In this document: in pieces, positions 4,758-31,649 of the stretch
Numbering within the stretch: the first letter of the stretch is position 1
How the letters are laid out: each line of letters begins with the position of its first letter
Source: Pseudomonadota bacterium
GTDB lineage: Bacteria; Pseudomonadota; Gammaproteobacteria; Burkholderiales; SG8-39
Reading direction: 5' to 3'
NCBI GenBank assembly: GCA_021813275.1
Contig: JAKALD010000005.1
Span: forward strand, 1-35,264
Length of the DNA stretch: 35,264 nt
Position numbers and translations under genes: made by a program
Notes under the pieces: generated by a model
The model's database searches: none
What the model saw: only the letters and a program-made list of their open reading frames with translations
Told to the model about the DNA's origin: nothing

Positions 4758-4830
4758 ATTCCCCCGACCCCGGGTTTGCCCGGTGCTCCGGCTGTGGGAT
4801 AATCCGGAATGCCGGAAAACGCAACAGGCC

Positions 4831-5085
4831 ATGGACATCGTCAAGCTGGGCAAGAAGGGGCAGGTCTCGCTGCCCGCGGGAGTTCTCCGTAAGCTCGGGC
4901 TGCGCGGCTCCGCGACGCTGCTCGTCGAAGCCACCGACGACGGGGCAGTCGTGCTGCGGCCTGCCGCCGTGTATCCGATCGAGCTGTTCAGCGACGCTCG
5001 CGTCAAGGAGTTCGAGGAGGCGGACCGGATCAGCGCGGCAGAGGCCGCGCGCGTCAAGAGAGCCGTCAAGCGCCGCCGGCGTTGA
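4831..5085 (+). CDS. AbrB/MazE/SpoVT-type antitoxin
   Basis: MDIVKLGKKGQVSLPAGVLRKLGLRGSATLLVEATDDGAVVLRP; overlaps downstream PIN gene. Confidence 0.8.
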   Translation: MDIVKLGKKGQVSLPAGVLRKLGLRGSATLLVEATDDGAVVLRPAAVYPIELFSDARVKEFEEADRISAAEAARVKRAVKRRRR

Positions 5086-5504
5086 AGCTGTTCCTCGACG
5101 CGAACGTCGTGTTCTCCGCGGCGCACCGCGCGGAAGGGCGCGCGCAAGCGCTCGTTGCGCTCGCGAGGGCGGGCCGCTGCCTGCTCGTCACGTCCGCGCA
5201 TGCGCTCGAGGAGGCGCGCAGGAACCTCGAGCTCAAGTCGCACGGCTATGACAAGCGCCTCGCCGCGGCGCTCGGCGCCATCGCCATCGTGCCGGAGGCG
5301 CCGCACGAGCTCGTCGCCTGGGCGCGCGCACAGGGTCTGCCGCTGAAGGATGCCCCGATCCTGGCCGCTGCGGTTCATGGCGGCGCGCATCTGCTCGTTA
5401 CGGGTGACGCGCGCGATTTCGGAAGCCTATATGGCCGCGCGCTTCGCGGGGTCACAGTGGTGACGCCCGCCCGGGCTCTCGAGGCCGTTCTGGCAGCGGG
5501 CTAG
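5082..5504 (+). CDS. PIN-domain toxin (VapC-like)
   Basis: MKLFLDANVVFSAAHRAEG...LPLKDAPILAAAVHGGAHLLVTGDARDFG; TTG start overlapping antitoxin stop. Confidence 0.85.
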   Translation: MKLFLDANVVFSAAHRAEGRAQALVALARAGRCLLVTSAHALEEARRNLELKSHGYDKRLAAALGAIAIVPEAPHELVAWARAQGLPLKDAPILAAAVHGGAHLLVTGDARDFGSLYGRALRGVTVVTPARALEAVLAAG

Positions 5505-8065: not shown

Positions 8066-8272
8066 CGAGCCCGCGGGGGCAGCCGGATACCGGCGATGCG
8101 GGATTCCCGGCGACCGTCGGGATACCGTGCCCTCGACGCCGCGGCAAGGGCGCCGCGGCGCCGGTCGCGGGCTCGGCCGCGGACTCCTCCCCGCGGGCAG
8201 CAAAGCGCCGATATGGCGCAGCCCGATGCAGTCGGGCCACAAGGCCCCGCCTTCGTGCGGGGCCTTTCTTTT
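8066..8272 (+). ncRNA. candidate structured intergenic RNA
   Basis: GCCCGCGGGG (8069-8078) can pair with CCCCGCGGGC (8189-8198); hairpins GCCGG-ATA-CCGGC, TCCCGGC-GACC-GTCGGGA, GCGCC-GATAT-GGCGC, GCCCGA-TGCAG-TCGGGC; ends at a strong terminator. No convincing protein in any frame. Confidence 0.45.
8241..8272 (+). terminator. rho-independent terminator
   Basis: AAGGCCCCGC-CTTCGT-GCGGGGCCTT perfect 10-bp stem followed by TCTTTT. Confidence 0.85.
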
Positions 8273-8319
8273 GCGGGCTGCGGGTAGGATAGCGGCCCCG
8301 CATTGCAAGGGAAGAATCC

Positions 8320-9249
8320 ATGCGCTTCGCGATCTACGGCACCGGCGGCATCGGCGGGTACTTCGGCGCGCGGCTGGCCGAGGCCGGCCACGACGTGCAC
8401 TTCATCGCGCGCGGCGCGCAGCTCGCGGCGCTGCACGCGAAGGGGCTCAAGCTGCTCAGCCCGCTTGGCGACGTGTTCCTCGATCGGCCGCAGGCGACCG
8501 ACGATCCGCGCAAAATCGGCGAGGTCGACTGCGTGATCCTGGGCGTGAAGACCTGGCAGGTGCGCGAGGCGGCCGAGGCGATGCGGCCGCTCGTCGGCCG
8601 GGATACCGTCGTGCTGCCGCTGCTGAACGGCGTGGAGGCTTCCGACCAGCTCGCCGAGGTGCTCGGCGGCGCGCATGTGCTCGGGGGCCTCGCCAAGGTC
8701 TTCAGCAAGATCGAATCCCCCGGCGTGATCCGGCACTTCAACACCTTCGCGCGGATCGACTTCGGCGAGCTCGCGGGCGGGCGCTCCGCGCGCGCCGAGC
8801 GGCTGCGCCAGGCGCTCGCCAGGCCCGGCATCGACGTCGCGGCGAGCGAGGACATCCGCACCGAGCTCTGGAAGAAGCTCGTCATCGTCAGCTCCTGGGC
8901 CGGGCTCGGCGCGCTCGCGCGCAGCCCGATCGGGGCGCTGCGCACGCTGCCCGAGACGCGCGAGCTGATCGACCGCGCGATCGACGAGGGGATCGACGTC
9001 GGCGTCGCGCGCGGGCACGCGATCGAGGCCGGCTTCAAGGCCGAGCTGTGGCGCATCTACGACGCTCTGCCCGCCGATGCGACCGCCTCCATGCAGCGCG
9101 ACATCATGGAGGGCAAGCCCTCGGAGCTCGATGCCTGGAACGGCGCGATCGTGCGCTTCGGCGCCGCGGCGGGCGTCGAGACGCCGGTGCACGAGTTCAC
9201 CTGCTACGCGCTCCTGCCGATGGAACGGCGCGCGCGCGGGCAGACCTGA
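8320..9249 (+). CDS. panE: 2-dehydropantoate 2-reductase family
   Basis: MRFAIYGTGGIGGYFGARLAEAGHDVHFIARGAQL...LWKKLVIVSSWAGLGAL. Confidence 0.9.
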   Translation: MRFAIYGTGGIGGYFGARLAEAGHDVHFIARGAQLAALHAKGLKLLSPLGDVFLDRPQATDDPRKIGEVDCVILGVKTWQVREAAEAMRPLVGRDTVVLPLLNGVEASDQLAEVLGGAHVLGGLAKVFSKIESPGVIRHFNTFARIDFGELAGGRSARAERLRQALARPGIDVAASEDIRTELWKKLVIVSSWAGLGALARSPIGALRTLPETRELIDRAIDEGIDVGVARGHAIEAGFKAELWRIYDALPADATASMQRDIMEGKPSELDAWNGAIVRFGAAAGVETPVHEFTCYALLPMERRARGQT

Positions 9250-9258
9250 AGCACCGGC

Positions 9259-10134
9259 TCAGCAGAGGCTGCGCGCGGGCAGCGAGCGATCGGCGATCGT
9301 GCGCGCCGCGGCTTGCGCGGGCTCGGGAAGCGCGTGCCCGCCGAGCGCGCTCGCGGGAAGCGGCCGCGCGCTCGCCCCGCCCAGGAACTCCGTGACGCGC
9401 GCGGCGCTCGCCGCGCCCGGCCAGTAATCGCCGTGCCCGTAGCCGGGCATCGCCTCGCGCGCGCTCCACAGCCCCGCCGCGGGGTCGCCGTTGCGTCCCA
9501 CCGCCGTCGGAAAGAAGCCTTCGCCCGCGGCGCTCTGCCCGAGCGGGAAAGCCCAGCGCAGCACCGCGTCGGCCTGCGAGAAAAGAACGAGCGTCCTTCC
9601 CGGCGCCGCCGCCGCGGCGCGCAGCTCGCCGCCGTCTTCCACCATGTACACCGGCACTGCAGCGGCCATGAGGCAGCACACCGTGAAGCGCAGCGCCTCG
9701 GGGCTTCCCGCCGCGCAATGCGCCGCGAGGAGCTCCAGCAGCAGCCGGTTGCCGAGCGAGTGGCACACGAGCCGCACTTCGAGCGGCCAGCCGCCCGCGG
9801 GCTGGAGCGCGGCGAGGAACGCGTAGAGCCGCTGCGCGGCTTCGCGCGCGACCGGGATCTCGAACGGATAGGCGAGCGGCCGCAGGATCCCCCAGTCCTC
9901 GTCGCCCGGCCAGAGGAACTCGCACAGCTGTCCCGCGGCGAGCGAGGCCTCGAGCCCAGTATGCGCGAGGAACTCGCCGTAGCTTGCGAGCGCCTCGGGC
10001 GCGGTGTTGTTGTAGCCGTGCACGAGGAGCGTCACGCGCCTGGCGTGCGGCATGGGCGCGGGCGAAACCGAGAGGCTGTCCGCGACCGGCCCGCCCGCGG
10101 GGCGCGTGCGCGCCGAGAGCACGATCGCCGCCAC
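9259..10134 (-). CDS. alpha/beta hydrolase
   Basis: RVTLLVHGYNNTAPEALASYGEF...VRLVCHSLGNRLLLELL (GxSxG-like HSLGN); GTG start. Confidence 0.75.
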   Translation of the reverse strand: MAAIVLSARTRPAGGPVADSLSVSPAPMPHARRVTLLVHGYNNTAPEALASYGEFLAHTGLEASLAAGQLCEFLWPGDEDWGILRPLAYPFEIPVAREAAQRLYAFLAALQPAGGWPLEVRLVCHSLGNRLLLELLAAHCAAGSPEALRFTVCCLMAAAVPVYMVEDGGELRAAAAAPGRTLVLFSQADAVLRWAFPLGQSAAGEGFFPTAVGRNGDPAAGLWSAREAMPGYGHGDYWPGAASAARVTEFLGGASARPLPASALGGHALPEPAQAAARTIADRSLPARSLC

Positions 10135-11022: not shown

Positions 11023-11268
11023 ATGACAACCATGCTGACCCTGACATTGAAGAACATCCCGAAGGAGCTGCACGCCCGGCTCAAACAGGCCGCGGACCGA
11101 AACCGCCGGAGCTTGAACAGCGAGATCCTCGTGCGATTGGAGAGCGAATTCGCTGCTCCGACAGTCGATGCAGAGACGCTCGCGCGCAGACTGAAGGCTT
11201 TCACGGCAGGAATGCCGCGCGTCCAGCACGCCAGAGCGACTCGGTACAAGCGCCAAGGCCGCGCGTGA
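11023..11268 (+). CDS. FitA/Arc-like ribbon-helix-helix antitoxin
   Basis: MLTLTLKNIPKELHARLKQAADRNRRSLNSEILVRLESEF; overlaps PIN gene. Confidence 0.85.
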   Translation: MTTMLTLTLKNIPKELHARLKQAADRNRRSLNSEILVRLESEFAAPTVDAETLARRLKAFTAGMPRVQHARATRYKRQGRA

Positions 11269-11669
11269 TCGTCGTCGACAGCAATGTCATCGCCTACTGC
11301 TGGATCAACGGGCCGCTTACGGAGCTTGCGCAGCGTATACGCGTCCGGGACCCGGAGTGGCATGCTCCCATTCTGTGGCGATCGGAGATGCGCAGCATTC
11401 TCACCGGATACCTCCGCGACGGCAGCCTTTCGGCCGCGCAGATCGCGAGAATCATGGAGGCGGCCGAGGAAGCGCTCGCCGGGCACGAGCATCTGGTGCC
11501 GAGCGAGCGCGTGTTTCACCTTGTGCGTGAATCGCGGCTGTCAGCCTATGACTGCGAGTTCGTAGCCCTGTCCGGCGCGCTCGCCGTGCCGCTGGTCACC
11601 GCGGACAGGGCGATCCTCAGGGCGTTTCCGGCGCGCGCCGTCGCGATGCCCGACTTCCTGCGCGAATGA
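11265..11669 (+). CDS. VapC-like PIN-domain toxin
   Basis: MIVVDSNVIAYCWINGPLTELAQ...RLSAYDCEFVALSGALAVPLVTADRAILRAFP. Confidence 0.88.
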   Translation: MIVVDSNVIAYCWINGPLTELAQRIRVRDPEWHAPILWRSEMRSILTGYLRDGSLSAAQIARIMEAAEEALAGHEHLVPSERVFHLVRESRLSAYDCEFVALSGALAVPLVTADRAILRAFPARAVAMPDFLRE

Positions 11670-20053: not shown

Positions 20054-20710
20054 ATGAGTACAAACGCGAGCCCGCTCGCCGCCGCCCTCTTCGGCAAGTC
20101 GATGCGCGCGATCCTAGGGCTGCTCTACGGGCGGCCGGACCGGCGCTTCTACGTGCGCGAGATCGCGCGCGCCGCGGGGATGACGCCGAGCTCCCTGCAG
20201 CGCCAACTGGCGACGCTGCAGCGTGCGGGGATCATCGAGCGCAGCGAGGAAGGGCGCCAGGTCTACTACCGGGCCGATTCCCGCTGCCCGATTTTCGGGG
20301 AGCTCAAAGCGATCGCGGCGAAGACCTTCGGCGTCGCCGAAGTGCTGCGCGCCGTGCTGCGGCCGAGAGCGAAGCGCATCCGCGCGGCGTTCATCTACGG
20401 ATCGGTCGCCAAGGGCACCGCGGCGGCGGGCAGCGACATCGACCTGCTCGTGATCGGCGAGGTTGCGCCCTCGGAGATCGCCGTGGACCTTGCGCAGGCG
20501 CGGCAGCGCCTGGGCCGCGAGGTGTCGCTGCTCGCGTACTCGAGCGCCGAGTTCGCGGCGCTCGCCGCGCAGGGCAACGCTTTCGTGACCCGGGTCCTCG
20601 AGGGCTCGGTCATCTGGCTGATCGGCGACAGGGAGACGGTGGATGGCCTCCGGACGCTCGAATCTCGAAAACCTCGCGCGCGCAAGGCAGCTCAACGCGG
20701 AGCCGCCTGA
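20054..20710 (+). CDS. winged-helix regulator fused to MNT-type nucleotidyltransferase
   Basis: FYVREIARAAGMTPSSLQRQLATLQRAGIIERSEEGRQVYYRAD (wHTH) + AFIYGSVAKGTAAAGSDIDLLVIG (GSx10DxD). Confidence 0.88.
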   Translation: MSTNASPLAAALFGKSMRAILGLLYGRPDRRFYVREIARAAGMTPSSLQRQLATLQRAGIIERSEEGRQVYYRADSRCPIFGELKAIAAKTFGVAEVLRAVLRPRAKRIRAAFIYGSVAKGTAAAGSDIDLLVIGEVAPSEIAVDLAQARQRLGREVSLLAYSSAEFAALAAQGNAFVTRVLEGSVIWLIGDRETVDGLRTLESRKPRARKAAQRGAA

Positions 20711-21086
20711 CCCGCGGGAGATCGCGAACCTGCTCGCCGGAGCGAAGGTGCAGCTCCGGGACGCGGCCGGCGCCGGCTTGAGCGCGCCGAGCCGGTTCGC
20801 GCTCGCCTACAACGCGGGCCATGCCCTGGCGCTCGCCGCGCTGCGTGCGAGCGGCTATCGGCCCTCGAGCGCGGGGCATCGCCGCATCGTGTTCCAGGCG
20901 CTGGAGTCGACCTGCGGCGCCCCCCGGGAGCTGTGGATGGCGCTCGACCGCTATCACGACCGGCGCAACAAGACCGAGTACGAGGGCGCGGCAGCCGCGA
21001 GCGCGCTCGAGGCGGACGACCTCACGAAGCTCGCTTCGCGGCTCGAGGCGCTCGTGTTGAAGCGCCTGAAAGCCCAGAGCGCCTGA
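20643..21086 (+). CDS. HEPN-like domain protein (putative toxin partner)
   Basis: SNLENLARARQLNAEPPDPREIANLLAGAKVQLRDA...YNAGHALALAALRASGYRP...ALDRYHDRRNKTEYEG. Confidence 0.75.
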   Translation: MASGRSNLENLARARQLNAEPPDPREIANLLAGAKVQLRDAAGAGLSAPSRFALAYNAGHALALAALRASGYRPSSAGHRRIVFQALESTCGAPRELWMALDRYHDRRNKTEYEGAAAASALEADDLTKLASRLEALVLKRLKAQSA

Positions 21087-21906: not shown

Positions 21907-22304
21907 GATAAGGCAGCGTGCGGATGAGGAGCCGGCGAATTCACGGCACCCGCTAGAATCGGGCGACCAGGAGCGCTCCACCGGAGAGGAGAGGTGCCGA
22001 GCAAGCCGATCGCCGTCCCGCTCGAGAGCATCGAAGCGCGCATCCTCGTCCTGCGGGGGCAGAAAGTCATGCTCAGCGCGCACCTCGCGGAGGTCTACGG
22101 CGTCGCGCCGCGCGCCCTCGTGCAGGCGGTCAGGCGCAACCTCGAGCGCTTCCCCGCGGATTTCATGTTCCAGTTGACTTGGGAAGAGGCGTCCGACTTG
22201 AAATCACAATCTGGGGATGGGTAAAGAATTTCTGTTGAAGAAGTTCTCGCAAGAGGCCTCTTTCCCCTCGGCGAGCAGTTCGGAGTGGGGGCTAATTCGC
22301 ATGT

Positions 22305-23306
22305 ATGGATTCGAAACATGCGAAGTCTCCGTGTTGTGGGGTGCGCGTTCGCCGATTCGGAGCGCGGCGAAGGCAATGCGTGCGATGCAAGCGCACATGG
22401 ACGATTCGTCCGAAGAAACGCGGGCGTCCGGTGCACCGGACGCCCGCGTCGATTCTGCACAAGGTGTTCGTGCGCGGCTTCACGCTCAGCCAGCTCGCGT
22501 CCAATCGTCAAAGCGTTGCGCTTGCGGCGTTCCGGTATCGATTCCGGCAGGCGCTCAAGCGGTTTGTCGCTCGGCCGAGTCCGCAGAAGATTCCTCGGGG
22601 GCCGCTGGTGCTGCTTGCCGACGGGCTGTGGTTCCAGTTCGACGGAGTACCGTGGGTGCTGTATTTGATGGCGCTGAAGCCCTGCAGGGGCAACCACGCT
22701 GTCTTTCTCGATCCGATGCTCTGCCCAGGCAAGGAGGGCGCCTCGCGCTGGCAGAGGGCCTTGGCGGCGATTCCTCAGCAGGCACAGCGACGCATTCAGG
22801 CCATTGTCGTCGACAACCTCCCCGGATTGCGAAAGCTCGCCCACCAGCATGGCTGGATACTGCAACTGTGCCACTTCCATTTGCTGCTCAAGCTGCAGGT
22901 TCATCGTCGTGGCGTGCGCTACGCCCTTCGTGGTGGCCCCGTTCGCGAGGAGATCTACCAGCTCATGCGGGAAGCAGTGGAATTGCCCGAGGGACGACGC
23001 CTGCACCATACGCTGCAGCGTCTGCGTCGTTTATCTCTCTCCGACTGTGGGACCGCCCGCATTCAAGCCACAGTCCGCGAGTTCTTGCAGGCATTCAGGT
23101 TCTACCGCTCATACCTTACGCATCCGCACCTCGGTCTTCCTCGAACCACAAACGCCATCGAATCCATGGGGCGGCCTGTTCGCGAGATGTTCCGAAGCAG
23201 CCGCTCCGGTTCGAACCCCAGATCGGTGTTGCTTTGGGCTACCGCTCTTATCCGCATGCGACCCAGGATCACCTGCAACGGCCATATCTTCAACAGAAAA
23301 ACTTAA
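22305..23306 (+). CDS. DDE transposase with N-terminal zinc ribbon
   Basis: [81 protein letters not shown]. Confidence 0.88.
22418..22449. repeat. 32-bp perfect palindrome inside the transposase CDS
   Basis: ACGCGGGCGTCCGGTG/CACCGGACGCCCGCGT, all 16 pairs complementary. Confidence 0.95.
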
Positions 23307-23718
23307 TCCTTCTCCAATCTGTGACCTTGAAGCGCGGCCAGAACATCAAGTATCTGCCCTACGCCTTCACCGAACAAGGCGTGGCCATGCTCTCGAGCGT
23401 GCTGCGAAGCCCCCGCGCCGTGCGGGTCAACATCGAAATCCTGCGCGCCTTCGTGAAGCTGCGGCAGATGCTCGCCTCGAACGCCGAGCTGGCGCGCAAG
23501 CTGACGGCGCTCGAAAGGAGATACGACGCCCAGTTCAAGGTCGTGTTCGACGCGATCCGCGAGCTCATGACGCCGCCGGCCGCGAAGCGGCGGTCGATCG
23601 GGTTCGGTCCTTGGGAGAAGAAATGACGGCGGACTTTTCCTGAGAGGGACAGCCGGAGCGCCGGTAGAATTTCGGCGTCCGAAAGACGCCGCGCATAACG
23701 CGAAGCGACGGGGGAGCG

Positions 23719-24215
23719 GTGCCGGGGAATCCGGAAGAAGAAGCCCGCGAGGAGATCGATCGGCTGCTCATTGCGGCGGGCTGGTCGGTGCAGGACTACA
23801 AGTCCGTAGACCTTCACGCGGCGCAGGGCGTCGCGTTGCGCGAATTCCCGCTGAAGGACGGCTACGGGGAGGCCGACTACCTTCTGTACGTCGACGCGAA
23901 GGCCGCGGGCGTGATCGAAGCGAAGAGGGTCGGCGCGACGCTCACCGGCGTCGAAGTCCAGTCCGGCAAGTATTCGAAGGGCCTGCCCGACGCGCTGCCC
24001 GCGTGGCGCCGGCCCCTTCCTTTCCTCTACGAATCGACGGGCCTCGAGACGCACTTCACGAACGGCCTCGACCCCGAGCCGCGCGCGCGCAACGTGTTCG
24101 CCTTCCATCGCCCGGAGACGCTCGCCGCCTGGCTCTCGACGCCGCAGCCGGATCCCGCCTCCGTGCCCGCGAAGACCGCCCGGTACGCGCGCTCGGATGC
24201 CGGCATCGGGACGTT
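23719..24215 (+). pseudogene. hsdR: type I restriction enzyme R subunit (HsdR) N-terminal fragment
   Basis: EEIDRLLIAAGWSVQDYKSVDLHAAQGVALREFPLKDGYGEADYLLYVDAKAAGVIEAKRVGATLTGVEVQSGKYSKGLP...FTNGLDPEPRARNVFAFHRPETLAAWL; no helicase domain follows. Confidence 0.85.
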
Positions 24216-24337
24216 CGCCTCACGAACGGCGCTGCCGCGGATCCGACGGGCCGTACGTGAGATCCTCGGCCGCTGTCACCGACAGCGACTGGTTCGATGT
24301 TCTTCGAGGCACATGTACAGCGGTGCGCTGCCTCGTC

Positions 24338-24685
24338 TATTTGGGGTACCAGAGCGAGATCGATCCCTGACCGTCGCATCGTGGCCGGATCGGGCGGCAT
24401 GCGGGCGGTACACCTTGGCGATATACGGCGGCGCGTGGCCGTCCACGAGCTGCTCGATCTTCGCCAGCGTGTTGACGAAATTCCGAGCTCGTTCGGCGTG
24501 TAGCGGATGCGCTCGTTGTGGGTGAGTGCGACCCGCCCGTTGCGGCCGCAGTGCTCGAGCCACTGCTCGTCCGACCCGTCGGGCGGGAAGAGGTCGTGAT
24601 GCCGCTCGACGGTCAGGCCGGCGGCAGCGAGGATTTCGGGAAAGCGTTTGCCGAGATCGCGGTCCGTGAAATAGACACGGCTCAC
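24338..24685 (-). pseudogene. PIN-like toxin, multiply frameshifted/deleted
   Basis: VSRVYFTDRDLGKRFPEILAAAGLTVERHHDLFPPDGSDEQWLEHCGRNGRVALTHNERIRYTPNEL | RNFVNTLAKIEQLVDGHAPPYIAKVYRPHAA | GSISLWYPK* in three frames. Confidence 0.7.
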
Positions 24686-25565: not shown

Positions 25566-26141
25566 CTACCGATAGCTCCTGAACTGCCCCACCACGACGC
25601 CGAAGATCTCGAGGTCGTCCTTCGGCCGGATGACGGGGTAAGCCTTGTTCTCGGGCCGCAGGACAATGCGGCCCTTCTCGCGCGCGAGGCGCTTCAGGGT
25701 GAATTCGTTGTCGAGGATCGCGACCACGATGTCGCCGACGTTCGCGCTGGTGCGCTTTTCGACCACGACGGTGTCGCCGTCGAGGATCCCCGCGTCGATC
25801 ATTGAGTCGCCCTTCACCTTGATGAGGAGGGTTCGGGAGGGGTTCGCGACCAAGTGCTCGTCGATGGTCAGTGTCTCCGGTGCGGTCTCCGCCGCGGGGC
25901 TCGGCATGCCCGCGCGCACGCTCTCGGCGACCGGGCGCTCGAAGAAGCGCTTGCCGGGCTTGAGCCGCCGATCGGGCGTGCTCTCGAGGAACCCCTCAGA
26001 CTTGAGCCGCAGGACCATCTCGGCCACGGACGCCTTGGAATTGAGCCCGACCAAAGCGCCGATGCGCGCGTAGGAAGGAAGCACGCGGTGCTTGGCGTAG
26101 TAGTCTTGCAGCCGCCCTACGTATTGACCGTCATCAGCCAT
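25566..26141 (-). CDS. LexA-like repressor (S24 peptidase)
   Basis: MADDGQYVGRLQDYYAKHRVLPSYARIGALVGLNSKASVAEMV; Ala-Gly site VRAGMPSPA; GDSMIDAGI (Ser); FTLKRL (Lys). Confidence 0.88.
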   Translation of the reverse strand: MADDGQYVGRLQDYYAKHRVLPSYARIGALVGLNSKASVAEMVLRLKSEGFLESTPDRRLKPGKRFFERPVAESVRAGMPSPAAETAPETLTIDEHLVANPSRTLLIKVKGDSMIDAGILDGDTVVVEKRTSANVGDIVVAILDNEFTLKRLAREKGRIVLRPENKAYPVIRPKDDLEIFGVVVGQFRSYR

Positions 26142-26154
26142 CAGCCTACGATAC

Positions 26155-26168
26155 CGAACGAACGTTCG
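26155..26168. promoter_or_regulatory. LexA-type operator CGAACGAACGTTCG
   Basis: GAAC-N4-GTTC core flanked by ACCGAAC...GTTCGGT, directly upstream of the LexA-like gene and in the divergent intergenic region. Confidence 0.7.
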
Positions 26169-26262
26169 GTGGTCAATCCATACGACATAGTCTGGTCGCG
26201 AACAAGTGCGACTTCTGTAAGAGCTGCCGAATAGGCGGAACATCTTCCGGCGAGGATGAGAC

Positions 26263-26994
26263 ATGTCTACGGTCAGTGGGATCGATTGGACCGAGATCAC
26301 CTGGAATCCCACGGTCGGTTGCGCGAAGATTTCGCCCGGCTGCAAGCACTGCTACGCCGAGAGCATGGCGAAGCGGTTGCAGGCCATGGGGATGCGAGGC
26401 TACGAGAACGGCTTCGAGCTGACGCTCATGCCGGAACGGTTGAGCGAGCCCCTGGAGCGCAGAAAGCCGACCGTCTATTTCGTCAATTCCATGTCGGATC
26501 TGTTTCATGAACGGGTCCCGTTCGATTTCGCCCGTCGCGTTTTCGATGTCATGGGGCGTTCGCCGCAGCACACCTTTCAGGTGCTCACGAAACGGGCGGA
26601 CCGGATGGCCGAGCTCTGCGCGGATCTGGCGGTGCCGGCGAACGTGTGGCTCGGCGCGTCGGTCGAAAACCGCAAGCACGGCCTGCCGAGAATTTCGCTG
26701 CTGCGCGGAATCGACGCGCCGGTGCGCTTCCTGTCGATCGAGCCGCTGCTGGAGGACCTTGGGAGCTTCGACCTCCGCGGGATCAAGTGGGTGATCGTCG
26801 GCGGCGAGTCCGGCCGCAAGGCGCGCCCGATGAGGTCGGCCTGGGTGGACAACATCAAGCGGCAATGCGACGAAGCGGGAGTGGCCTTCTTCTTCAAGCA
26901 ATGGGGTGCATGGGGAATGGACGGGCAGAAGCGCTCCAAGAAGGCGAACGGCAGGCTGTACGCGGGCCGGCTGTGGGACGCGATGCCGGCGTAG
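26263..26994 (+). CDS. phage Gp37/Gp68 family (DUF5131) protein
   Basis: SGIDWTEITWNPTVGCAKISPGCKHCYAESMAKRLQAMG...KPTVYFVNSMSDLFHERVP...VIVGGESGRKARPMRSAWV...FFFKQWGAWG. Confidence 0.92.
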   Translation: MSTVSGIDWTEITWNPTVGCAKISPGCKHCYAESMAKRLQAMGMRGYENGFELTLMPERLSEPLERRKPTVYFVNSMSDLFHERVPFDFARRVFDVMGRSPQHTFQVLTKRADRMAELCADLAVPANVWLGASVENRKHGLPRISLLRGIDAPVRFLSIEPLLEDLGSFDLRGIKWVIVGGESGRKARPMRSAWVDNIKRQCDEAGVAFFFKQWGAWGMDGQKRSKKANGRLYAGRLWDAMPA

Positions 26995-27141: not shown

Positions 27142-27432
27142 ATGAAAGTACTCGACCGCGAGCGGCTCGAGCGGTTCTGCCGCAAGCACACCGATGCCCG
27201 CAGCTGGATCGAGAACTGGCTGGCCGATGTCGAGAGCGCAGAATGGAGCACGCCGCAGGACATTCGCCGGCGCTACGCCAGCGCCAGCTTTCTGCCGGAA
27301 GGGGTCGTGGTCTTCAACGTGAAGGGCAACGCGTACCGGCTCGAAACGACGGTAGCCTATCGGACCGGCGTCGTCCTGATCGATTGGATCGGCACGCACC
27401 GCGAGTATGACGAGCGCAACAAGAGGCGCTGA
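27142..27432 (+). CDS. higB: HigB family toxin
   Basis: LDRERLERFCRKHTDARSWIENWLADVESAEWSTPQDIRRRYASASFLPEGVVVFNVKGNAYRLETTVAYRTGVVLIDWIGTHREYDER. Confidence 0.92.
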   Translation: MKVLDRERLERFCRKHTDARSWIENWLADVESAEWSTPQDIRRRYASASFLPEGVVVFNVKGNAYRLETTVAYRTGVVLIDWIGTHREYDERNKRR

Positions 27433-27433
27433 C

Positions 27434-27841
27434 ATGGAACTGCGGATCATCAAGACCGAAGAGCAGCATCGCCGCTACCTCGAAGAAGCGCGGCGCCTGG
27501 CGAAGGGCGACCCCGAGCCGGAAAGCGAGGACGGCGCACGGCTCGAGCTCCTCGCCAAGCTCATCGACGACTACGAGAAGGAGCGCTTCAAGTTCCGCAA
27601 GCCCGATCCGATCGAGGCGATTCTCTTCCGGATGGAGGAGCAGGGCCTGCGCCAGGCGGACATCGCCGCGCTCGTCGGCGGGAAGAACCGGGCTTCGGAG
27701 ATCCTCTCGCGGAAGCGCCCCCTCACGCTTGCGATGGTTCGTGCGCTTCACGAGAAGCTCGGCATTCCCAGTGAGCTTCTGATCCGCGAGCCCGCCGCCG
27801 AATACCGGGTGCGCCGGCCTGGAGGTAAGCGGACTCGATGA
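27434..27841 (+). CDS. higA: HigA-type helix-turn-helix antitoxin
   Basis: FKFRKPDPIEAILFRMEEQGLRQADIAALVGGKNRASEILSRKRPLTLAMVRALHEKLGIPSELLI. Confidence 0.9.
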   Translation: MELRIIKTEEQHRRYLEEARRLAKGDPEPESEDGARLELLAKLIDDYEKERFKFRKPDPIEAILFRMEEQGLRQADIAALVGGKNRASEILSRKRPLTLAMVRALHEKLGIPSELLIREPAAEYRVRRPGGKRTR

Positions 27842-30869: not shown

Positions 30870-30878
30870 GGGGCGTGG

Positions 30879-30895
30879 TACACTGGATTCGTGTA
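30879..30895. promoter_or_regulatory. inverted repeat upstream of RHH/VapC
   Basis: TACAC-TGGATTC-GTGTA, 16 bp before ATG 30911. Confidence 0.5.
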
Positions 30896-30910
30896 ATTTC
30901 CGCTGACCCC

Positions 30911-31162
30911 ATGAAGAACGTGACGATTACACTGGACGAGGAGACGGCGCGGCTGGTGCGCGTGCGTGCGGCGGAGCGGGACATGAGCGTATCCCGGTAC
31001 ATCGGTGAGCTGCTGCGCGCCGACATCCGCGCCTCGCGCGAGTACCAGGAGGCGTACCGCGCCTTCCTCGCCGAGAAGCCGCTCAAGCTCAGAAAGAGTG
31101 CCGCAGACCGGTACCTGACCCGCGAGGAGGCTCATGACCGGGCCGGTCTTCGTAGACGCTAA
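30911..31162 (+). CDS. CopG/RHH antitoxin
   Basis: MKNVTITLDEETARLVRVRAAERDMSVSRYIGELLRADI. Confidence 0.88.
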   Translation: MKNVTITLDEETARLVRVRAAERDMSVSRYIGELLRADIRASREYQEAYRAFLAEKPLKLRKSAADRYLTREEAHDRAGLRRR

Positions 31163-31649
31163 CGTCTTCCTCTATGCGCGCGACGAAATCGAGCCGGCGA
31201 AGATGGCGCGTGCGAGAGCGTGGCTCGAGTATCTCTGGCGCGAAAGCCTGGGGTGCACCAGCACGCAGGTGCTCGCGGCGTATTACGTCAACTTGAAGCG
31301 CAAGGCTGGAGCCCGCCTCGCGCTGGAGGCGGCGTGGCAGGACGTGGCGAAGTACCTCGCGTGGCGCCCCCAACCTGTGGACGAAGCGGTTCTCAATCGC
31401 GCGCACGACATCGAGCAACGATATCGGCTCTCCTGGTGGGACAGCATGGTCGTCGCCGCCGCGCAGCTGCAGGAGTGCGCGCTCTTGCTGACGGAGGATC
31501 TGCACGATGGGGCGGTATTCGGCGCCGTCACCGTGCGCAGCCCCTTCACGCTCTCCGCCGAGCAACCGCCCCCCGCGTACGCCGCGCCGCCCGCCGCGGC
31601 GAGCCGGCACCGGCGGCGCGGCCGGCCGAAGCGAGTCGCCCTGCCCTGA
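31134..31649 (+). CDS. VapC-like PIN toxin with basic C-terminal tail
   Basis: MTGPVFVDANVFLYARDEIEPAKMARARAWLEYL...IEQRYRLSWWDSMVVAAAQLQECALLLTEDLHDGAVFGAVTVRSPF then PPPAYAAPPAAASRHRRRGRPKRVALP. Confidence 0.88.
   Translation: MTGPVFVDANVFLYARDEIEPAKMARARAWLEYLWRESLGCTSTQVLAAYYVNLKRKAGARLALEAAWQDVAKYLAWRPQPVDEAVLNRAHDIEQRYRLSWWDSMVVAAAQLQECALLLTEDLHDGAVFGAVTVRSPFTLSAEQPPPAYAAPPAAASRHRRRGRPKRVALP

Follow-up and report, generated by a model that had tools for sequence, protein, structure and literature searches.

Two genes lie back to back at positions 25566-26994 of the window, by which we mean the whole 35,264-nucleotide stretch of DNA that was analysed: a LexA-like gene on the minus strand, here named lexA2, and a DUF5131 gene on the plus strand, with an operator between them (Table 1). 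This divergent pair had been read from the letters of the DNA alone, and family searches have borne it out. LexA2 matches Peptidase_S24 (E=1.3e-30) and scores above the 110.95-bit cut-off of TIGR00498, the LexA equivalog model (121 bits, or 120.1 when the whole genome is searched), and the DUF5131 protein matches PF07505 with 353 bits against a gathering score of 28.9.

Table 1. Positions of the cassette, its control elements and the neighbouring genes in the window.
Feature	Position	Strand	Description
Three small toxin-antitoxin-like gene pairs	4783-5504, 11023-11669, 30875-31649	+	
HTH-nucleotidyltransferase gene, then partner	20054-21086	+	
ORF6N-domain gene	21994-23626	+	apparently split
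ORF6N parts	N-terminal 21994-22224; C-terminal-like after about 23330	+	
Weak IS256-like transposase ORF	22305-23306		
ORF with N-terminal HsdR domain (PF04313) only	23719-24525	+	
lexA2, second LexA-type repressor	25566-26141	-	191 aa; ATG at 26141; divergent winged-helix N-terminus; A77-G78, S113/K150
Rightward promoter (divergent gene)	26124-26152	+	-35 TTGACC (26124-26129, in lexA2 codons 5-6); 17-nt spacer; -10 TACGAT (26147-26152)
lexA2 promoter	26148-26176	-	-35 TTGACC (26176-26171); 17-nt spacer holding the operator; -10 TATCGT (26153-26148); conserved in relatives
Operator palindrome CGAACGAACGTTCG	26155-26168		core GAACGAACGTTC at 26156-26167
tcmP 5'-end stub KCDFCKSCRIGGTSSGEDETC	26204-26266	+	21 codons; no start codon; fused onto the DUF5131 start
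DUF5131 gene (PF07505; PDC-M30B/M41B)	26263-26994	+	243 aa; predicted radical-SAM-type TIM barrel
CX6CX2C codons (C20, C27, C30)	26320-26352	+	likely [4Fe-4S] ligands; invariant in 55 relatives
HigB toxin and HTH antitoxin genes	27142-27841	+	directly downstream of DUF5131

The Ala-Gly cleavage site and the Ser/Lys dyad expected of a self-cleaving repressor are indeed retained in LexA2, and A77-G78, S113 and K150 are invariant across 14 aligned homologues. Since the match of LexA2 to the LexA DNA-binding Pfam model scores 20.4 bits, below the cut-off of 23.7, its DNA-binding domain is considered divergent. The source genome (G000, a 3.67-Mb draft, 94% complete) also encodes a canonical LexA on contig C233, which scores 232 bits in the same TIGR00498 search and is 33% identical to LexA2. 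A canonical SOS box, CTGTATATAAACACAG, is found elsewhere in this genome just upstream of an imuA-like ORF, read as imuA from its sequence. With a canonical LexA and its SOS box both retained in the genome, the role of master SOS regulator does not fall to LexA2, which may respond to a different signal. Control of the core SOS regulon (recA, imuAB and others) by LexA2 was not found, the imuA-like gene having the canonical LexA box. Sites of the form GAAC-N4-GTTC show no excess genome-wide (12, versus 14 for a reversed-pattern control), and two other such sites that were inspected, one inside a gene (L007) and one directly behind a gene (L009), are not promoter-like; a wider LexA2 regulon is therefore not claimed.

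Homologues of LexA2 with 50-82% identity occur widely in the order, and those in named records come from Gallionella, Gallionellaceae, Nitrosomonadales, Nitrosovibrio, Nitrosospira, Methylobacillus, Chitinimonas and others. Sanchez-Alberola et al. reportedly described, in 2015, a non-canonical betaproteobacterial LexA of the Sideroxydans lithotrophicus / Gallionella type, with the motif GAACGaaCGTTC, that serves as SOS master regulator in those bacteria. The box of LexA2 and the taxa of its homologues are presumably the motif and taxa of that non-canonical SOS regulon. The two share the motif and the promoter position, and the proteins are homologous (57-66% identity of LexA2 to Gallionella, Gallionellaceae and Nitrosomonadales proteins); however, the Sideroxydans-type LexA is an SOS master, whereas LexA2 shares its genome with a canonical LexA and is linked to a cassette that moves laterally. 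LexA2 is a homologue of the Sideroxydans-type LexA with an apparently local regulon.

The GAAC-N4-GTTC box that the sequence-only reading had placed between the two genes is present as the palindrome listed in Table 1. Its exact 14-mer, CGAACGNNCGTTCG, occurs twice in the 3.67-Mb genome with no mismatch allowed, and about 0.02 occurrences are expected per window. The pattern G[AT]ACN4GT[AT]C is found upstream of 61 of the 70 LexA2 homologues (from Gallionella, Nitrosomonadales, Methylobacillus and others), most often immediately after a TTGAC -35 hexamer. Judged by this comparison, the position and conservation of the operator are far beyond chance. The Bacillus-type LexA box is CGAACRNRYGTTCG. 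The operator in the window is near-identical to it, but the LexA lineage differs, and the DNA-binding domain of LexA2 is poorly matched by the LexA model. The motif had been called Gram-positive-style; it is there, but it is no oddity, being the motif of an entire betaproteobacterial LexA family. In a few lexA2 genes of the Methylophilaceae type (L082, L091, L112 and L115), GTAC-N4-GTAC stands where GAAC-N4-GTTC is otherwise found in the promoter, so that the motif has shifted within one LexA family.

A second promoter faces the divergent gene, and its -10 element ends 3 nt before the operator. This rightward promoter, TTGAC[CG]-N17-TANNAT, is found at a fixed distance and with nine of the twelve consensus bases matched in every cargo-bearing close locus examined (11-12; those scored were the window, L047, L064-L067, L069, L103, L104, L291 and L292). 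It is weaker in the cargo-less close homologues L068, L293 and L294 (8, 8 and 6 matches), and only one of 53 distant LexA2 homologues has it with at least 9 matches. Its -35 element is encoded by codons 5-6 of lexA2, GGT CAA. Across the ten close genes compared, CAA is the invariable choice, against a share of 27% in the remainder of those genes, and codon 5 ends in T every time, even where the amino acid has changed (GGT accounts for 10% of the glycine codons elsewhere). Because these codons are fixed despite synonymous sites that are near saturation among the ten lexA2 genes, we argue that selection acts on the DNA for a real rightward promoter. In L047 and L069, the starts of lexA2 and tcmP are only 45-46 bp apart, so that one operator would serve both sides and a LexA2 dimer should block both directions. 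One operator probably controls both lexA2 and the divergent gene. The earlier proposal that the DUF5131 gene is under an SOS-type repressor is thus strongly supported, at the level of sequence, by the shared operator and the conserved second promoter.

It is conceivable that LexA2 controls itself only and that the divergent DUF5131 gene is an unregulated passenger. The 53 distant lexA2 genes, which are most of the homologues, mostly have no such neighbour or second promoter, and it is a caveat on the rightward promoter itself that it matches the consensus at only 9 of 12 bases. We consider this very unlikely, since no cargo-bearing locus lacks the rightward promoter, which is weaker where cargo is missing and is kept at synonymous positions of lexA2, and since the linkage is seen again, with the cargo changed, in some 10 genomes from different families.

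The comparison of related loci bears on what this shared control region governs. The cassette-bearing lexA2 genes fall in one clade (support 98/97, nine rows in the tree). Among its members and further close copies, DUF5131 is directly divergent to lexA2 in the window, in L065/G349 and in L066/G132, while tcmP and then DUF5131 stand on the divergent side in L047/G046, L069/G376, L103, L104, L291 and L292. In L048/G070, this place is taken by a HipA_2/DUF3037 pair (L048 9535-10907, minus strand) followed by DUF5131, and in L183/G023 the HipA_2 and DUF3037 genes are alone (8207-9858, plus strand), with no DUF5131 within the stretch read. TcmP was identified by TIGR04474 in L047 (172 bits), L069 (146 bits) and L104 (121 bits), and also on contig C168 of the source genome; in L291 it was recognised by the beginning of its ORF. 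No fewer than three TcmP types have been exchanged at the same place.

By the PADLOC models, the DUF5131 protein of the window is PDC-M30B/M41B (359/356 bits), the TcmP proteins of the relatives are PDC-M41A or M30A, and the HipA_2/DUF3037 pair is PDC-M66A/B. PDC stands for phage defence candidate (PMC11514479), and membership is a prediction of defence from genomic context. Of the PDC-M41 and PDC-M30 systems (TcmP and DUF5131), the window has the B component, whereas the adjacent A component has no copy in cis other than a stub; PDC-M66 is the system of HipA_2 and DUF3037. We know of no reported link of the PDC-M41, M30 or M66 candidates to a LexA.

The locus is sparse among close relatives of its host. 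Copies of lexA2 with at least 74% identity are found in 4 of 97 genomes of its own GTDB family, the window's genome excluded, with one more at 49%, and the GC content dips to 62-66% at the locus from 70-74%. This sparse distribution and the GC dip point to lateral acquisition of the LexA2 locus. A search of plasmids returned S24 proteins of less than 60% identity only, and the cassette is therefore not a known plasmid element.

The short stub in front of DUF5131 aligns with the Cys-rich N-termini of TcmP proteins, with BLOSUM62 scores of 66 (L069) and 63 (L292); the best unrelated tile in the 35-kb window scores 44, and thousands of shuffles reach 47 at most. By these alignments, the stub is the scar of a tcmP deletion. 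L065 has a stub, AYRGREPSFIKHELLRAY, from a different TcmP type, which scores 80 to the TcmP of L104 (maximum of shuffles, 42). As the two stubs come from different TcmP types, tcmP was lost at least two times, by deletions that spared DUF5131. Loss of tcmP through an IS was considered and dropped, since no IS stands at the junction, where the stub passes straight into the start of DUF5131. The only TcmP of the source genome is on contig C168 beside a second DUF5131, and this pair (L051 2495-4191, minus strand) has neither lexA2 nor a GAAC-N4-GTTC box, its DUF5131 being 56-58% identical to that of the window. The C168 TcmP could act in trans for the window DUF5131. The lack of a TcmP partner noted in the sequence-only reading holds locally, but it reflects a secondary loss and not a different system, and a tcmP is present on C168. 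A tcmP in an identical second cassette, which that reading had named as evidence against itself, did not turn up in the genome search: the second cassette is non-identical and without lexA.

The stub without a start codon, the low-GC island, and the nearby IS-interrupted ORF6N gene and truncated HsdR-like ORF could also be taken to mean that the cassette is decaying, with tcmP gone and DUF5131 a non-functional orphan on its way out. We regard this as improbable. DUF5131 is full-length and keeps all family-invariant residues, with a dN/dS of about 0.08-0.10 against its relatives where not saturated; together with lexA2 it is under strong purifying selection (about 0.04-0.14 where not saturated). 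The form without tcmP is also found in G132 and G349, the stub in G349 being independent and of another TcmP type, and TcmP is available in trans.

What DUF5131 may do is suggested by structural modelling. The Cys-rich CxxxxxxCxxC motif that had been pointed out is invariant in 55 relatives (Table 1), and beyond its three Cys no invariant Cys is found among DUF5131 relatives. An AlphaFold2 model, built with the window protein and 54 relatives, has a pLDDT of 94 and a pTM of 0.90. Six PDB chains match it at E<0.001, and all are spore photoproduct lyase (SPL; probability 1.00, query TM 0.49-0.55, which is moderate). SPL is a radical-SAM enzyme. The predicted structure has the TIM-barrel fold of the radical-SAM superfamily, with CX6CX2C in place of the canonical CX3CX2C. 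No sequence relatives of DUF5131 were found in the PDB, and the SPL family models of Pfam and NCBIfam did not match, so the likeness is in fold only. The TcmP of L103 was modelled as a class I methyltransferase (pLDDT 90), with which its FxGxG and DP motifs agree, and its best functionally named match is RlmJ. RlmJ is an rRNA m6A methyltransferase. The biochemistry of DUF5131, first described as unknown, can thus be narrowed to a predicted radical-SAM fold nearest to spore photoproduct lyase, in a protein that is a PADLOC phage-defence candidate. DUF5131 is abundant in viral contigs (at least 595 confirmed stretches), and near-full-length TcmP is also found in 22 of the 80 viral DUF5131 loci retained. 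DUF5131 and TcmP are nearly absent from the literature searched, which places TcmP only beside the Hna defence gene of S. meliloti and in prophages.

These observations raise the question of whether DUF5131 could be an SplB-like DNA-repair enzyme, that is, a radical-SAM lyase induced by damage, which would directly reverse a lesion of thymine or another base and form a stand-alone repair unit rather than a defence system. SPL is the sole significant fold match in the PDB, and purifying selection has kept DUF5131 after tcmP was lost in the window and in G349. Moreover, reports of LexA control over SplB exist for alpha- and beta-Proteobacteria (PMC3323433) and for Bacteroidetes (PMC8565304). Like those splB genes, the window has a gene of predicted radical-SAM fold under predicted LexA control, and such control of SplB-type genes would fit a repair role of DUF5131. 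On the other hand, DUF5131 is not of the SPL family by sequence, and its Cys spacing differs; the Cys that acts as hydrogen donor in SPL is not conserved, because DUF5131 has no invariant Cys besides the three ligands; and repair alone does not explain the abundance of DUF5131 in phages and its linkage to TcmP. We therefore hold stand-alone repair to be possible but unlikely. Membership of the PDC systems, phage abundance and partner exchange fit a defence role.

Considering the locus as a whole, we find it likely that it is a LexA-governed divergent cassette, in which a DNA-damage switch of a known kind seems to have gained control over an exchangeable cassette that is a candidate for phage defence or DNA repair. 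Comparison among loci, working from sequence, shows the LexA family, the operator, the two promoters, the linkage, the exchange of cargo and the tcmP stub. We propose that a LexA2 dimer on the operator would block both promoters. By analogy with LexA, RecA-ssDNA arising from DNA damage or phage attack would stimulate self-cleavage of LexA2 at Ala77-Gly78 by Ser113/Lys150, and lexA2 and DUF5131 would then be expressed together. As its fold and motif suggest, DUF5131 could hold a [4Fe-4S] cluster through CX6CX2C and act on nucleic acid by radical-SAM chemistry. With TcmP, its methyltransferase-like usual neighbour, it would belong to a candidate phage-defence or lesion-handling module; with the cis tcmP deleted to a stub here, it may work alone or with the TcmP of C168. 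The weakest step of this mechanism is the role of DUF5131 for the cell.

Neither the LexA motif nor the pairing of DUF5131 with TcmP is new. A LexA clade that would be dedicated to exchangeable candidate defence cassettes, and move with them, through one shared operator is not described, as far as the literature searched shows. A broader reading joins these points: lexA2, with one operator under two overlapping divergent promoters, would be a mobile unit that captures and exchanges PDC-M41, PDC-M30 and PDC-M66 and makes them DNA-damage-inducible independently of the host SOS regulon, and DUF5131, the most constant enzyme, would be a radical-SAM protein of SPL fold that works on nucleic acid. 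We offer it tentatively, as a serious possibility that we would not yet back in full. If true, there would be a second SOS-type switch dedicated to defence-type genes, which travels with them and stands apart from the SOS response of the cell. DNA damage would then be a concrete induction test for the very widespread, uncharacterised DUF5131/TcmP pair, and its chemistry would gain a structural hypothesis, a radical-SAM barrel resembling a lyase of DNA photolesions, paired with a methyltransferase like RlmJ.

Several other genes in the window are of similar character (Table 1). The ORF6N-domain gene is apparently split by the weak IS256-like transposase ORF, and the ORF with the HsdR domain is likely the remnant of a type I restriction subunit. 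The HigB toxin next to DUF5131 matches PF09907 with 86 bits. One of the three small toxin-antitoxin-like pairs was assigned by family search (AbrB/MazE and PIN) and two by eye (antitoxin and PIN). The HTH-nucleotidyltransferase gene and its partner match PADLOC PDC-M05A/B with 228 and 140 bits, and a similar HTH-nucleotidyltransferase gene is found near lexA2 in L069 (147-743) and L186 (7918-8580).
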